Origin: Erythrobacteraceae bacterium E2-1 Yellow Sea
Lineage (GTDB): Bacteria; Pseudomonadota; Alphaproteobacteria; Sphingomonadales; Sphingomonadaceae
Direction: 5' to 3'
Assembly: GCA_014983025.1 (NCBI GenBank)
Contig: JADCLP010000001.1
Location: 62,001 to 126,000, forward strand
Length of the DNA stretch: 64,000 bases
The notes under the pieces were generated by a model. The model was not told the origin of the DNA, ran no database searches, and saw nothing but the letters and a program-made list of their open reading frames with translations. A program made the translations under genes and the position numbers. The first letter of the stretch is position 1, and the number at the start of each line of letters is the position of its first letter. This document shows, in pieces, positions 26,102 through 53,993 of the stretch.

Positions 26102-27343
26102 ATGGCCGACCCCGCATCCTCTCGCGCGCAACCTAAAGACGCGACGGGAGTCCTCGTCTTGGCTGACGGAACTGTAATCTGGGGCAGGGGATTCGGTGCC
26201 ACGGGCAATGCCGTGGGGGAAGTGTGCTTCAACACCGCGATGACGGGTTATCAGGAAGTGATGACCGATCCCAGCTATGCGGCGCAGATCGTCACCTTCA
26301 CCTTCCCGCATATCGGCAATGTTGGCACCAATGATGAAGACATTGAAAGCCATGTGGATGGCGCGGTGGGCTGCATCACGCGTGAGGAAGTGACCCAGCC
26401 CAGCAATTTCCGCAGTGCCGCAAATTTCATCGATTGGATGACGGCGAACGGCAAGATCGGCCTTGCAGGCGTGGATACGCGCGCGCTGACGCGCTGCATT
26501 CGCCTGTCCGGCGCGCCCAATGCGGTGATTGCGCATGATCCCGCTGGCACATTCGATATTCCCGCCCTGCTGACTAAAGCGCAGCAATGGGGTGGGCTGG
26601 AAGGGCTGGATCTGGCGCAGGTCGTCACCCGCAATGGACAGGAAGAATGGACTGGTGGGCCATGGGGATTGGGTGATGGGTATCAAAGCCCACCGTTCGC
26701 TTCGAGCGAAGTCGAGAAGCAGGCGGGCGATCGTGTCTCGACTGGGCTCGACACGAACGGAGATCGCCCCCACGTCGTGGCCATGGATTTTGGCGCGAAG
26801 GACAATATCTTCCGCAATCTGGTGAAGGCGGGCGCAAAGGTAACCGTGGTCCCTGCCAAGACACCGGTTGAGGATATTCTGGCGCTCAACCCCGATGGCG
26901 TGTTCCTCAGCAACGGGCCGGGCGATCCGGCGGCGACGGGTGAATACGCCGTGCCGGTGATCCGCGCGCTGCTGGAACGCGATATGCCGCTGTTCGGCAT
27001 TTGCCTGGGCCACCAGATGCTTGCGCTGGCCGCAGGGGCCAAGACGGTGAAGATGCACCAGGGCCACCGCGGCGCAAACCACCCGGTTCAGCGCGTGGGC
27101 GGCGAATGGGGTGAAACTGAAACGCTGGTTGAAATCACCAGCATGAACCACGGTTTTGCGGTGGATGGGGGCAGCCTGCCCGCTGGCATGGTGGAAACGC
27201 ACAAAAGCCTGTTTGATGGCAGCAATTGTGGCATTTCGATCACCGGCAAGAAGGCGTTCGGCGTGCAATACCACCCCGAGGCGTCACCCGGCCCGCAGGA
27301 CAGCTTCTACCTGTTCGAGAAATTCGTGGGGATGTTGGGGTGA
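26102..27343 (+). CDS. carA: Carbamoyl-phosphate synthase small subunit, with an in-frame repeat insertion
   Basis: Glutaminase subunit that supplies ammonia for carbamoyl phosphate (pyrimidines, arginine). It has 413 residues. The N-terminal CPSase domain (GYQEVMTDPSYAAQIVTFT) is followed by a class I glutamine amidotransferase domain with catalytic Cys in FGICLGHQML and His/Glu in YHPEASPGP. Between them, at residues of about 198-220, lies SPPFASSEVEKQ...STGLDTNGD, which the family does not have. It is encoded by a 68-base palindromic repeat (26693-26760) without a frameshift. The stop overlaps the next gene (GTGA). Confidence 0.96.
   Translation: MADPASSRAQPKDATGVLVLADGTVIWGRGFGATGNAVGEVCFNTAMTGYQEVMTDPSYAAQIVTFTFPHIGNVGTNDEDIESHVDGAVGCITREEVTQPSNFRSAANFIDWMTANGKIGLAGVDTRALTRCIRLSGAPNAVIAHDPAGTFDIPALLTKAQQWGGLEGLDLAQVVTRNGQEEWTGGPWGLGDGYQSPPFASSEVEKQAGDRVSTGLDTNGDRPHVVAMDFGAKDNIFRNLVKAGAKVTVVPAKTPVEDILALNPDGVFLSNGPGDPAATGEYAVPVIRALLERDMPLFGICLGHQMLALAAGAKTVKMHQGHRGANHPVQRVGGEWGETETLVEITSMNHGFAVDGGSLPAGMVETHKSLFDGSNCGISITGKKAFGVQYHPEASPGPQDSFYLFEKFVGMLG
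26693..26760. repeat. Palindromic element inserted in frame in carA
   Basis: A 68-base inverted repeat: the left arm CCGTTCGCTTCGAGCGAAGT continues CGAGAAGC, and the right arm is its imperfect complement ending ACACGAACGG. It is open in the carA frame and codes for about 23 residues in the linker between the two CarA domains. The sequence family (TTCGAGCGAAGTCGAG...CTCGACTGGGCTCGA) differs from the elements in glyS. Confidence 0.8.
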
Positions 27344-48650: not shown

Positions 48651-48779
48651 GTCACATACCTTTCGAATTGCATTGAGTTACATTTCGCGCGCCACGCCTC
48701 CAGGGATGACCATGACGCCGAAGCGCGGGCCTTTAGTGTGATGATGGGCAAATGGCAACCCCAAGCGGGCATAGCGCGC

Positions 48780-49661
48780 TTATTGCAGGCGCTTCACACT
48801 ATATCCGCGCGCTTCCAGCATGGCTGCAAGGCCATCAGGGCCGATCAGATGGGCTGTGCCAACTGCCACAAGCGGGCGGTCGCCTGCTTCAAGCATCGGC
48901 AGCAATTGCTGCAACCAGTCAGTATTGCGCCCGATCAAAAGTGCCGCGCGCAGTTCAGGGTCTGCCAGCAGGCCCTTCTGCGTTGCATCCTCTAACACTT
49001 CTGCATCACCGGCCAGCCAGGCGTGGCGCAGTTTTTCAGTGTCTTTGTTATGCTGGTCCGCCTCTTCCACAACAGCCATAAGCATATCACGCTGTTCACC
49101 CTCTGGCAGTGTGTCGAAAATACCCAGCTGTTTTTCAGCCCCTTCAAATTCGCGAACCTGACGATTGGCAAAATCGCGTAGCAGGGCGCGGTCCGCACCA
49201 TTGGCTGCGCCACCATCATCATCGACCTGTGCCAATATCAATGCGGCGGCCCATGTTTCGGTCGCGCCAAAATCGCTTGCAGAGAGGCCAGACTTTTCGA
49301 TCAGGTTGAACAGGGCAGGGCGGCTTGATGATGGAACACGCATCCCGATGTCAGGCTGGGCAGGTGTTGTCGCAAGGTCAGAAAAGGTTTGGCGAAGTGC
49401 TGCCTGATCATCCAGCGCGGCAATTTCCACCACCAGTACGCCAGCCCTTTCCATGACATGTTCCAGCGCAGGCGTGCGCCATTGCGTGCCTGCAGGCAGA
49501 GAGTGGATGGTGCCGAACATCCACCCGACCGGCTGCCCCTCTGTATCCGCTATTTCATAGAGCATTGGGGAAGGGCGCGCGCCATCGCCCCCCGGTGCAT
49601 CGCTACATGCCGTGGCTGACAGCGCCAGGCCCATGCCCAGCATAAGGCGCTTCAGCCACAT
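48780..49661 (-). CDS. TraB/GumN-like lipoprotein
   Basis: A 293-residue protein with a lipoprotein-type signal (MWLKRLMLGMGLALSATACSD, lipobox-like TAC). The TraB/GumN domain begins LYEIADTEGQPVGWMFGTIHSLP with the conserved GTxH, and ends ALVAVGTAHLIGPDGL (here PLVAVGTAHLIG), with GTAHL again. These are the paired histidine motifs of TraB-like proteins. The frame runs on to 49799, but Met at 49661 begins the signal. It shares one base with the stop of the neighbouring homologue. Confidence 0.85.
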   Translation of the reverse strand: MWLKRLMLGMGLALSATACSDAPGGDGARPSPMLYEIADTEGQPVGWMFGTIHSLPAGTQWRTPALEHVMERAGVLVVEIAALDDQAALRQTFSDLATTPAQPDIGMRVPSSSRPALFNLIEKSGLSASDFGATETWAAALILAQVDDDGGAANGADRALLRDFANRQVREFEGAEKQLGIFDTLPEGEQRDMLMAVVEEADQHNKDTEKLRHAWLAGDAEVLEDATQKGLLADPELRAALLIGRNTDWLQQLLPMLEAGDRPLVAVGTAHLIGPDGLAAMLEARGYSVKRLQ

Positions 49662-50785: not shown

Positions 50786-51696
50786 GTTTCGAGCCACCAA
50801 AGCGCGACCCCAAGGCGTCTTTTCAGGACATGATCCTTGCTCTCCATGATTTCTGGAGTGCCAAGGGATGCGTCATTCTGCAACCTTACGATATGCGTAT
50901 GGGGGCAGGCACGTTTCACCCTGCCACCACACTGCGCGCACTGGGGCCGGAACCGTGGAATGCGGCCTTTGTCCAGCCATGCCGTCGCCCGACCGATGGC
51001 CGCTATGGTGAAAACCCCAATCGGTTGCAGCATTATTACCAGTATCAGGTGATCCTGAAGCCCAGCCCGCCTGATATTCAGGAATGGTATCTGGAAAGCC
51101 TGCGCGTGATCGGCATCGATCCACTGAAGCATGATATCCGCTTTGTGGAAGATGACTGGGAATCACCCACGCTGGGCGCATGGGGCCTGGGCTGGGAGGT
51201 CTGGTGTGACGGGATGGAAGTGACCCAGTTCACCTATTTCCAGCAGATGGGCGGGTTTGATTGCAAGCCTGTGGCTGGCGAACTCACCTACGGCCTGGAA
51301 CGGCTCGCCATGTATATTCAGGGCGTCGACAATGTGTACGATCTTGCGTTCAACACTCGGGGCGTGAGTTACGGCGACGTGTTTCTGGAAAACGAGCGGC
51401 AGATGTCGAAATGGAATTTCGAAGTTGCCGAAACCGATGCTCTGTTTGACCTGTTCAACAAGGCCGAGGCGGAATGCCGCAACTGCCTCGCCAATGATGT
51501 GCCCATCGCCGCCTATGAGCAGGCGATTGAGGCGAGCCATGTCTTCAACCTGTTGCAGGCGCGCGGCGTGATCAGTGTGCAGGAACGCGCCAGCTATATG
51601 GGCCGGGTGCGTGATCTGGCCCGCGGGTCTTGCGAGGCGCATATGGCCAAGGAAGCCGAGCGTTGGGCGACGGAATATGAGGGGTGGTCGATATGA
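50782..51696 (+). CDS. glyQ: Glycyl-tRNA synthetase alpha subunit
   Basis: Catalytic subunit of the tetrameric alpha2-beta2 glycyl-tRNA synthetase. It has 304 residues with [46 protein letters not shown] and [24 protein letters not shown] (class II motif 3 region). Length normal. It overlaps glyS by four bases (ATGA). See the hairpin and leader ORF at its start. Confidence 0.98.
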
Positions 51697-53993
51697 GCGG
51701 CTCCGACTTCCTCCTAGAACTCCTTTCGGAAGAAATTCCCGCACGCATGCAGGCGGGTGCCCGCGCCGAACTGGAAAAGCTGTTCCGGCGGGAGATGGAA
51801 GCCGCAGGCATTTCGCTGGGTAAGATCACCGTATGGTCCACGCCGCGCCGCCTTGCGCTGATTGCGCGCGATCTGCCAGAAGCGACTGAAGCAGTGAGCG
51901 AAGAAGCCAAGGGCCCGCCAGAGGGGGCACCGGATCAGGCGATTGATGGTTTTTGCCGCAAGAACGGCGTGACGCGTGACCAGCTGACCTTGCGCGATGT
52001 GAAGGGCCGCAACACCTGGTTCGCAGTGATCGAAAAGCCCGGCCAGGCGACGAAAGACCTGCTGGCAACGGCGATCCCCGCCATCATCCGCGACTTTAGC
52101 TGGCCCAAGAGCCAGCGTTGGGGTGCGGCATCGATCAGCACGGAAAGCCTGCGCTGGGTGCGCCCGCTGCAGGGTATTGTTGCCATTCTGGGTGATGATC
52201 TGGTCGAATGCGAAGTGGGCGGCATCCGTTCCGGTTTCGCCACAATGGGCCACCGGTTCCACCATGATGGGCCGATCACCATTGGGAACGCAGCGGATTA
52301 TGCGGAGAAGCTGCGCGCGTGCCATGTGATTGTCGACCACAAAGAACGGCAGGATCTGATCCGCACCAAGGCGCGCGATGCCGCTGAAGCAGCCGGGCTG
52401 ACACTGGTCGAGGATGAAGGTCTGGTGATCGAGAATGCCGGCCTGACCGAATGGCCGGTGCCGCTGCTGGGCCGATTTGATGAGGAATATCTGGACGTCC
52501 CACCAGAGGTTGTCCAGCTGACGGCGCGTGTGAACCAGAAGTACTTCGTGTGCGAGGATTCGGACGGAAAACTGGCAAACGCCTTCATCTGCACCGCCAA
52601 TATCAGCGCCGATGATCCCGCCGTGGTGGTGGATGGAAACCGCAAGGTGCTCGCCGCGCGACTTTCCGATGCACGGTTCTTCTGGGAACTCGACCAGAAA
52701 ACCACGCTGGCTGACCATGCCAAGAAACTGGAACGGATTACCTTCCATGAAAAGCTGGGCACGGTGGCCGACAAGGTCGATCGCGTAGCCAAGCTGGCGC
52801 GATGGTTGGTGGAATCAGATATCGTCACCCCAGCGAAAGCTGGGGTCGCTAACAACCAAGGCGCTTCCTCGACACAGATCCCAGCTTCCGCTGGGATGAC
52901 GAAAGAGGAGCTGGCCGATCTCGCCGAGCAGGCCGCGCGGCTGTGCAAGGCCGATCTGGTCACTGAAATGGTCGGCGAGTTTCCCGAATTGCAGGGCCTG
53001 ATGGGCGGATATTACGCCGAGAAGGAAGGGCTGGACCCTGCTGTTTCCGCCGCGATCCGCGACCATTACAAGCCGGTGGGGCAGGGCGATGACGTGCCTA
53101 CGGCACCTGTTACGGTGGCGGTGAGCTTGGCGGACAAGCTGGATACGCTTCTCGCATTTTTCGTAATCAATCAGCCTCCTTCAGGATCTAAAGATCCGTT
53201 TGCTCTCCGTAGGGCTTCTTTGGCTGCTATCCGACAAATCGATACCGTGGGTCTTCGAGTTTCGCTGTGTCGCCTGTTTGAGAATCATTACGAAGCCGTC
53301 TTCGAGGATTACAAAAAGGCAGATTTCGAACGCAAAAAGCGCGAAAGTGGTGGCGGAGCAATAGTGCAGGGGTTTGCCCACGTTGGGCCGAAGCCACCGA
53401 ACGTTACGAAAGCAAAGGAACTCCTCGATTTCTTCGCGGACCGCTTGAAGGTCCAGCAGAAGGAAGCAGGCGTTCGCCATGATCTGATCGACGCGGTATT
53501 TGCACTCGGCGGAGAGGACGATCTCGTCCGCCTGCTTGCGCGCGTCCATGCGTTGCAAAGCTTCATGGAAACCGAAGACGGTGCCAATCTGCTCTCCGGA
53601 TACAAGCGCGCGGCCAATATCCTGAAGAAGGAAAACTACGTCACCCCAGCGCAAGCTGGGGTCGCTGACGGGGAAGAGCCAGGCCAGAACCAGATCCCAG
53701 CTTCCGCTGGGATGACGGGTATGGCGCTTTCCTACTCCCCCGAACCTGCGGAAAAGGCGCTGATGGATGCGCTCGACAATGCAGAACCGCAGGCGGAAAG
53801 CGCCGTGGCGGCAGAAGATTTTGCCACAGCCATGTCCGCGCTCGCCAGTCTGCGTGCACCCATCGACCGCTTCTTCGATGAAGTTACGGTAAATGCAGAT
53901 GAAGAAATGAAACGTGCAAATCGTCTTGATCTGCTTGCACGTTTTCGTGCTGCAGTGCACAAAGTGGCGGATTTCTCACGAATTGAGGGGTGA
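51693..53993 (+). CDS. glyS: Glycyl-tRNA synthetase beta subunit, with two repeat-encoded insertions
   Basis: tRNA-binding subunit of glycyl-tRNA synthetase. It has 766 residues against about 690-700 for the family. It starts [20 protein letters not shown], contains [13 protein letters not shown] and [13 protein letters not shown] (DALR-type end region follows). Two segments, about residues 377-403 and 649-675, read VTPAKAGV...[10 protein letters not shown] and VTPAQAGV...[10 protein letters not shown]. Each is encoded by a 79-base palindromic element without loss of frame. The rest looks intact, so the protein is probably functional. Confidence 0.97.
52823..52901. repeat. Palindromic element, in-frame copy 1 in glyS
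   Basis: A 79-base unit with ends CGTCA/TGACG, a left hairpin CCCCAGC-GAAA-GCTGGGG and a right hairpin ATCCCAGC-TTCC-GCTGGGAT joined by about 28 variable bases. It codes for [20 protein letters not shown] followed by ASAGMT. The same architecture occurs at 53639-53717 and, outside genes, at 15188-15268. Confidence 0.88.
53639..53717. repeat. Palindromic element, in-frame copy 2 in glyS
   Basis: A 79-base unit with ends CGTCA/TGACG, hairpins CCCCAGC-GCAA-GCTGGGG and ATCCCAGC-TTCC-GCTGGGAT and a variable middle. It has the same length, orientation and frame as copy 1; the right half is identical to it. It codes for [20 protein letters not shown] followed by ASAGMT. Confidence 0.88.

Follow-up and report, generated by a model that had tools for sequence, protein, structure and literature searches.

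A palindromic segment of 79 nt lies inside glyS, the gene for the beta subunit of glycyl-tRNA synthetase, in a stretch of 64,000 nt (the window) from Erythrobacteraceae bacterium E2-1 Yellow Sea. The reading frame of this essential gene continues through the palindrome. The locus raises the questions of what such a segment is, how it came to lie where it does, and what machinery might have brought it there.

CGTC REPs were defined by Di Nocera et al. 2013 (PMC3733652) by a CGTC tag, a stem, a loop and their occurrence as dimers. Those parts of the paper that bear on the present locus report that stem positions 1 and 2 are 'almost invariably' A-T pairs, that most tails fit CCA, that head-to-head dimers predominate, and that some REPs lie in frame within genes, tRNA synthetases of E. 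litoralis (spelled lithoralis) and S. alaskensis among them. They also name recB as a gene in which different REPs occupy nearly one place, and equate R. conorii RPE-6 with CGTC-1 and RPE-4 with CGTC-4. No associated transposase gene is mentioned in these parts, which leave the CGTC REPs without a mobility gene, and the paper ends by asking what agent moves them.

Here we describe the glyS palindrome, its copies in its own genome and in related genomes, and a family of longer elements that share its hairpins and carry a gene for a GIY-YIG nuclease.

Results

Two palindromic dimers in the frame of glyS

The features of the gene are the following (positions in the window).

51684..53993, + strand: glyS (beta subunit of glycyl-tRNA synthetase), ORF of 769 aa that holds both palindromic inserts in frame
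52823..52846, + strand: insert 1, left hairpin, with CGTC tag, 8-bp stem and 4-nt loop GAAA, followed by the tail CGCT
52847..52877, + strand: insert 1, spacer of 31 nt
52878..52901, - strand: insert 1, right hairpin, an inverted unit of the left kind, loop TTCC on the + strand
53639..53662, + strand: insert 2, left hairpin
53663..53693, + strand: insert 2, spacer of 31 nt
53694..53717, - strand: insert 2, right hairpin

The frame of 769 aa, which stays open across the 79 nt of insert 1, starts with a GTG at 51684, and an ATG three codons downstream may be the true start. Its product matches PF02092 of Pfam (E 3.9e-182) and TIGR00211 of NCBIfam (E 5.6e-214), and an earlier note on this DNA was right to regard the rest of GlyS as normal. 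The gene gave a single match in its own genome.

Insert 1 (52823-52901) has CGTCA at its start and TGACG at its end and is a head-to-head dimer of two CGTC-tagged, 24-nt hairpins on either side of the spacer, just as the earlier note had described a two-hairpin unit of 79 bases between such ends. When the insert was folded as DNA with 5 nt on each side, z was -6.5 and none of 200 shuffles folded as well; the predicted minimum-energy form has both hairpins paired together as one long stem. Insert 2 (53639-53717) is just as long, follows 816 nt further along glyS and is 80% identical (E 5.6e-14). The stems of the glyS hairpins are ACCCCAGC/GCTGGGGT and ATCCCAGC/GCTGGGAT, the loops on the + strand are GAAA, GCAA and TTCC, and the CGTC tag stands at the outer end of both units in both copies. 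Stem positions 1 and 2 are both A-T in the right units, and A-T then C-G in the left units. The unpaired tail, read inward from the hairpin, is CGC(T) in left-hand units and CTG in right-hand ones. A stem of 8 bp with a loop of 4 nt is the CGTC-1 form. By tag, stem, loop and dimer form, the glyS insert is an intragenic CGTC-type REP dimer, and belongs to a kind already described.

The loop TTCC, which encodes Ser in this frame, is found in both glyS right hairpins (52878-52901 and 53694-53717), and TTTC (Phe) is commoner in sampled dimers elsewhere. Either a shared origin of the two copies or selection against an exposed Phe may lie behind this. When the window's inverted repeats with no more than 120 nt between their arms are ranked, the pair at 52822-52902 comes first, followed by glyS copy 2 and one in carA, so that the top three all fall within coding genes. 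The fourth (48720-48815) has 22-nt arms, 52 nt apart.

Copies elsewhere in the genome

A search of the genome for the palindrome returned the second glyS copy together with dimers and longer elements at other places. The family is small, consisting of the two glyS dimers and five further members:

C5:9286-9366: short dimer, apparently intergenic (frames inspected)
C11:960388-960468: short dimer, apparently intergenic (frames inspected)
C11:77244: degenerate single unit
C11:884189-884553: longer nuclease element, 365 nt
C11:929500-929864: longer nuclease element, 365 nt

A strict hairpin pattern matched five times on the forward and five times on the reverse strand, and not at all in the backward-read control. 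The family is thus dispersed and multicopy in its own genome and its units stand head to head, both of which are features of CGTC-1 REPs.

Position of the insert in the GlyS protein

Insert 1 corresponds to 26 residues of GlyS (381-406). Alignment with relatives gives a clean gap, the distance from anchor to anchor being 28-29 residues in typical empty homologues versus 54 in the window gene, which substantiates the claim that the palindrome adds about 26 residues in frame to an essential gene. The flanks of the insert correspond to residues 378 and 386 of the E. coli GlyS chain in 7YSE, where only about seven residues bridge them. An AlphaFold2 model of GlyS, for which 39 sequences were used, reached a mean pLDDT of 83 and a pTM of 0.65. 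Both inserts are loops between helices in this model; residues 386-398 have pLDDT values below 50, and the block means of insert 2 (652-678) are 63-74. The 26 residues are presumably present in the GlyS protein and neutral or harmless there.

A recurrent insertion site in glyS

Of 100 genomes drawn as a sample of the genus, 96 had a glyS match. We examined 90, in which a contig end cuts three of the genes and one more has a short frame. Site 1, the place of insert 1, holds a repeat in 30 of the 90 and a short loop of 26-38 residues in the remaining 60, and close relatives that keep these residues in the absence of a palindrome were not found among them. At site 2 a repeat is present in 13 of the 90. 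This count was made to lessen the bias of the best-scoring 80 relatives' loci and of the first 30 genus loci, which favour genes with a query-like insert. Across 161 distinct GlyS genes, preselected loci included, a repeat is found at site 1 in 63 and at site 2 in 25. E. sanguineus (L009), a cultured Erythrobacter, is one of the carriers of a GlyS insert.

The repeats are not of one kind. The 30 site-1 inserts comprise CGTC-type REPs (12), SPLP/PSPEGEG (8), RPEPVEG (6), CTTGATC REPs (2) and PPPRAGE (2); these counts are approximate because kinds were assigned by peptide motifs that we wrote ourselves, and in two or three of these CGTC-type inserts (L090, L109, L110) the hairpin lacks an intact tag. 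As DNA, 27 of the 30 site-1 inserts contain an inverted repeat that beats all 60 shuffles, and the other three were matched by at most 2 of 60. At site 2, eight of the 13 inserts are clearly palindromic and five are not.

When presence at site 1 was mapped by parsimony on a GlyS core tree of 161 genes, it required 35 gains and 6 losses; the count assumes the core tree to fit the insert and would be too high if glyS had recombined internally. The typed labels of site 1 show 53 changes on this tree, which equals the lowest of 200 shuffles (mean 59.7) and indicates weak clustering. Some site-1 insertions were therefore inherited, and many are necessarily independent. Recombination notwithstanding, five unrelated kinds of repeat at the loop do not go back to one event. 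The glyS loop is a recurrent insertion site for about five unrelated kinds of repeat.

No start of a CGTC REP was found on either strand of the upstream glyQ, which was matched in all of the best-scoring 80 loci. A dimer lies between the glyQ stop and the glyS start in three of these loci (L008, L011, L073). The number of loose-stem CGTC hairpins within glyS was uninformative (67 in the genes versus 42 in codon-shuffled genes), and we relied on dimers and site positions instead.

Junctions and a possible target

CGTC-type inserts with different stems (CCAGC, CCCGC and CGGACTTGATCCG) join glyS at one and the same dinucleotide in several genes. At this shared junction the CGTC of the tag doubles as the end of the host codons ATC GTC (Ile-Val); other CGTC-type inserts begin a few codons further in. 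ATCGTC is already spelled at the site in 20 of 56 empty glyS homologues, and no duplicated tag was seen at the junction in the filled genes displayed. Several filled relatives have the flank ESDIV in common, so some of the insertions were probably inherited. Elements that target a tetranucleotide insert beside a pre-existing copy of it, and the glyS junctions would be consistent with insertion beside a CGTC that was already there. The evidence for CGTC as a target comes from glyS; in carA, the nearest empty homologue does not have it.

Palindromes in carA and other genes

A second gene of the window is affected in the same manner.

26693..26760, + strand: carA, in-frame palindromic pair in the interdomain linker, 25-nt arms, of an RPEPVEG/RVERSRDT-like family that differs from the glyS family

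The CarA interdomain linker holds an in-frame palindrome in four of 26 genomes, the window included. The insertion of palindromes in frame thus reaches beyond glyS, carA being a second gene with the same phenomenon. Outside glyS and the nuclease elements 20 dimers were sampled, of which 18 were placed and two were off pattern. Eight dimer-spanning frames were compared with Pfam, shorter ones (at most 142 aa) at other loci being left out; there was one clear internal in-frame case (carA, L307), one at the start of pntB (L311), and no match for the other six. At L311:778-1683 the CGTC REP dimer lies at the apparent N-terminus of PntB, and it may be extragenic if the start is later.

GIY-YIG nuclease genes bracketed by cognate hairpins

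In the two 365-nt elements of the own genome, the same hairpins stand head to head around a gene for a protein of about 95 aa that matches PF01541, the GIY-YIG domain (E 2.1e-15); in the first of the two the gene occupies C11:884225-884506. Elements of this kind are generally about 350-380 nt long. The nuclease query had matches in 48 of 61 genomes of the genus, with up to 13 per genome, fragments included.

Bracketing was scored as inverted arms within 110 nt on both sides with a score of at least 12 in the genus, and with 130-nt flanks in the class and the phylum, which are taken from the named relatives to be Alphaproteobacteria and Pseudomonadota. In the genus, inverted arms bracket the nuclease in 46 of 50 loci versus none of 48 positions up to 500 nt out. 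In the class, represented by single genomes of different families, the figures are 19/29 versus 0/28 control positions. In the phylum, after six loci already in the class or genus surveys had been left out, they are 17/24 versus 0/22, and 4/9 for loci outside the class of the window. Loci below the inverted-repeat threshold numbered 4 of 50, 10 of 29 and 7 of 24 in the genus, class and phylum, respectively. No such arms were found around glyS (0/79), carA (0/25) or neighbouring ORFs (0/47); together with the positions up to 500 nt out, these genes rule out chance bracketing by abundant repeats.

Arm types differ with the lineage of the nuclease and include CGTC-CCAGC, CCGGACTTGATCCGG, CCCGTCCCGGGCTTGACC, CGCCCCGTGCTTGACACGG and others. 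Among 47 non-redundant loci with an arm score of at least 14, the distance between nucleases tracks the distance between arms (Mantel r 0.56; none of 2000 permutations as high, the best being 0.17), and nuclease and hairpin sequences covary.

Twenty weak GIY-YIG loci, meant as a control, served instead as extra data and provided no clean negative control: eight were dropped, and among the 12 placed a second GIY-YIG subfamily is bracketed by an RPEPVEG-type palindrome in nine. The other three encode GIY-YIG proteins of another kind and have no such arms. At least three of the repeat types found in the glyS loop thus have GIY-YIG partners. In the second subfamily (L285-L292, L295) some frames are longer, at 147-237 aa.

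Each of Y6, Y17, G19, R27, E64 and N83 is conserved in at least 76 of 78 nuclease copies, and we take the Tyr, Tyr, Arg, Glu and Asn positions to be catalytic residues of the GIY-YIG domain. Internal stops occur in four of the 78. Values of dN/dS are 0.07-0.18 in nine of 12 pairs and not computable in three, a pattern that points to purifying selection on the nuclease gene.

Relation between dimers and nuclease elements

Short dimers and nuclease elements have tails as well as hairpins in common. Arms ending in T are followed by CGCT and arms ending in C by CTAGGGC or nearly so, a rule with exceptions among both dimers and nuclease elements; the CGCT left tail of the window glyS dimers is also the tail at one end of the nuclease elements in the own genome. 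One genome (G053) contains a shortened form of 180 nt that keeps nuclease residues 59-93 between the same arms. Because hairpin and tail are shared, the short dimers look like miniature, gene-less derivatives of the nuclease elements, a direction that could also be reversed.

The hairpin and the nuclease were also compared across 61 genomes, by eye and, for the class of at least 60% identity, with full-length nuclease matches. A full-length nuclease with 60% or more identity to that of the own genome occurs in 18 genomes, and the CCAGC hairpin is present in 17 of these and in 20 of the 43 others. By the same count, three genomes have the hairpin without any nuclease match, and some nuclease match occurs in 14 of the 24 genomes without the hairpin.

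Signs of mobility come from several loci. One genome (G054) holds seven nuclease copies, 95-98% identical, in different places and nested in a further shared repeat; given this nesting, the moving unit may be larger than the nuclease element. Downstream of nadA the nuclease is present in six of 30 loci and absent from 23, and one locus has only 82 nt of sequence there. In L371 the element starts 9 nt after the nadA stop, and homology with L381 resumes at 396 in the former versus 4 in the latter (88% over 1102 nt), which makes L381 an empty site. In L377 and L391 the nuclease at this site is inverted, and the one locus thus shows empty, filled and inverted states. A REP-like remnant downstream of nadA was seen by eye in L379. 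In the flanks of L126, L153-L158, L124, L127 and L118/L119, nuclease elements often lie beside or inside another repeat with motifs such as GCTATCGACCCC, GCGGACAT and CCACCCA, which may be a preferred target or a larger moving unit.

The RAYT-type transposase domain Y1_Tnp (PF01797) was not found in the own genome. It is present in four of the 61 genus genomes (three of the 37 with the hairpin) and in five of 14 control genomes. Mobilisation by a RAYT in the own genome was set aside on this basis.

The palindrome had been taken in the earlier note for a mobile or self-copying element. The data uphold the first description, that of a palindrome of mobile type in the frame of an otherwise normal GlyS; as for self-copying, the longer, nuclease-bearing relative is a likelier driver than the short dimer itself.

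Discussion

The glyS insert is probably best explained as a CGTC REP dimer in a tolerant loop of GlyS and as the miniature of an element whose GIY-YIG nuclease likely spreads both. The dimer would have entered a loop with room for additional residues, the point of entry probably being a CGTC that was present beforehand in the codons ATC GTC (Ile-Val), and translation would turn it into 26 harmless residues. It would be a gene-less relative of the element of about 350-380 nt in which the hairpins bracket the nuclease of about 95 aa. The nuclease would most likely spread both forms, cutting at or beside the tagged hairpins or the target. That the nuclease does the moving, and that CGTC is the target, is what we infer from the patterns of sequence described above. 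We also lean, with less assurance, towards a broader statement: stand-alone GIY-YIG nucleases may be the mobility partners of CGTC-type REPs and of other palindromes in Pseudomonadota, with lineage-specific recognition of hairpin plus tag, insertion beside a CGTC-type target, and repeated colonisation of permissive loops in essential proteins.

We consider another account unlikely. In it the REP is an ordinary intragenic one whose mobiliser is unrelated or has died out (a RAYT located elsewhere is one example), and the nuclease is a passenger that homes into REP dimers. Homing nucleases of the GIY-YIG superfamily do insert genes into fixed sites, and such a passenger would fit the three genomes in which CCAGC hairpins occur without a nuclease match. 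It fits less well with the tails beyond the hairpin that dimers and nuclease elements have in common, with cognate hairpins that differ by nuclease lineage, and with the near absence of Y1 transposases from the genus sample, although all of these remain compatible with a nuclease that invaded the spacer of an older dimer.

It is rather improbable that the inserts are selected for, with the peptide or an mRNA hairpin regulating GlyS or being useful in some other way: the kinds that fill the site have no peptide motif in common, their lengths vary, 60 of the 90 genomes do without a repeat there, and the carA linker behaves likewise. What selection would account for is the recurrence at sites 1 and 2 (30 and 13 of the 90), the strong folding of the insert 1 segment, and the Ser-encoding TTCC loop of both window copies versus the mostly Phe-encoding TTTC of dimers elsewhere. 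Hardly credible is the reading that the insert belongs to the normal GlyS fold and is ancestral in this clade. The ESDIV flank of several filled relatives, with some insertions probably inherited, is in keeping with it, but the segment is missing from those same 60 genomes and from E. coli GlyS, its DNA matches repeats elsewhere in the same genome, and the AlphaFold2 model has no confident structure there.

Insertion of a CGTC REP dimer, with a nuclease element as the probable mover, can be set beside several known systems. CGTC-1 REPs have the same CGTC tag, 8-bp stem, 4-nt loop, head-to-head dimers and intragenic in-frame cases; the tail here is CGC(T) or CTAGGGC versus the commonest CCA, and neither a transposase gene nor a glyS site appears in the parts of the description cited above, in contrast to the nuclease partner and the recurrent glyS site found here (PMC3733652). 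The Rickettsia palindromic elements RPE-4 and RPE-6 are likewise in-frame palindromes in a conserved coding gene that are absent from homologues. A resemblance to them had been proposed in the earlier note, and it holds through the equation of RPE-6 and RPE-4 with CGTC-1 and CGTC-4 made in the same parts of PMC3733652, on which the likeness to these families rests; the genome context differs.

In the REPIN/RAYT system (REPtrons), hairpin dimers derive from an element around a transposase gene. The architecture is the same, the tagged hairpin dimers here being read as gene-less derivatives of an element whose hairpins flank a DNA-processing gene, with matched types of hairpin and enzyme. The enzyme differs, being a GIY-YIG nuclease here and an HUH tyrosine transposase there, and Y1_Tnp was not found in the own genome, for which reason we do not class the glyS dimer as a REPIN/RAYT element. 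GIY-YIG homing endonucleases have in common with the present nuclease the catalytic domain family, the active-site residues and a likely selfish spread. Theirs is a place in an intron or a fixed coding site, whereas the present protein, known from sequence, is a single domain of about 95 aa between hairpin repeats. The part of PMC1564403 that concerns the superfamily reports that no GIY-YIG homing endonucleases were found in Alphaproteobacteria. Among the matches listed in the open-licence literature, we found no paper linking GIY-YIG to REPs.

Three things go beyond the described CGTC REPs: the recurrent glyS site, the GIY-YIG partner bracketed by cognate hairpins, and dimers that have both hairpin and tail in common with its elements. 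With such a partner, a single small protein and a single oligonucleotide substrate suffice for a direct test of what moves CGTC REPs. If the proposal is true, these elements would form a REP class parallel to REPIN/RAYT with an unrelated enzyme.

The loops of glyS and carA, repeatedly filled by unrelated palindromes, are a natural experiment in the making of new protein segments from mobile DNA in essential genes. Elsewhere in glyS, the segment 53160-53420 (about residues 493-579) is also variable in length, 48 of 81 genes having 13-71 extra residues of a non-repeat nature near core position 511, and its G+C content dips to 0.515-0.54 versus about 0.6 in most of the gene.
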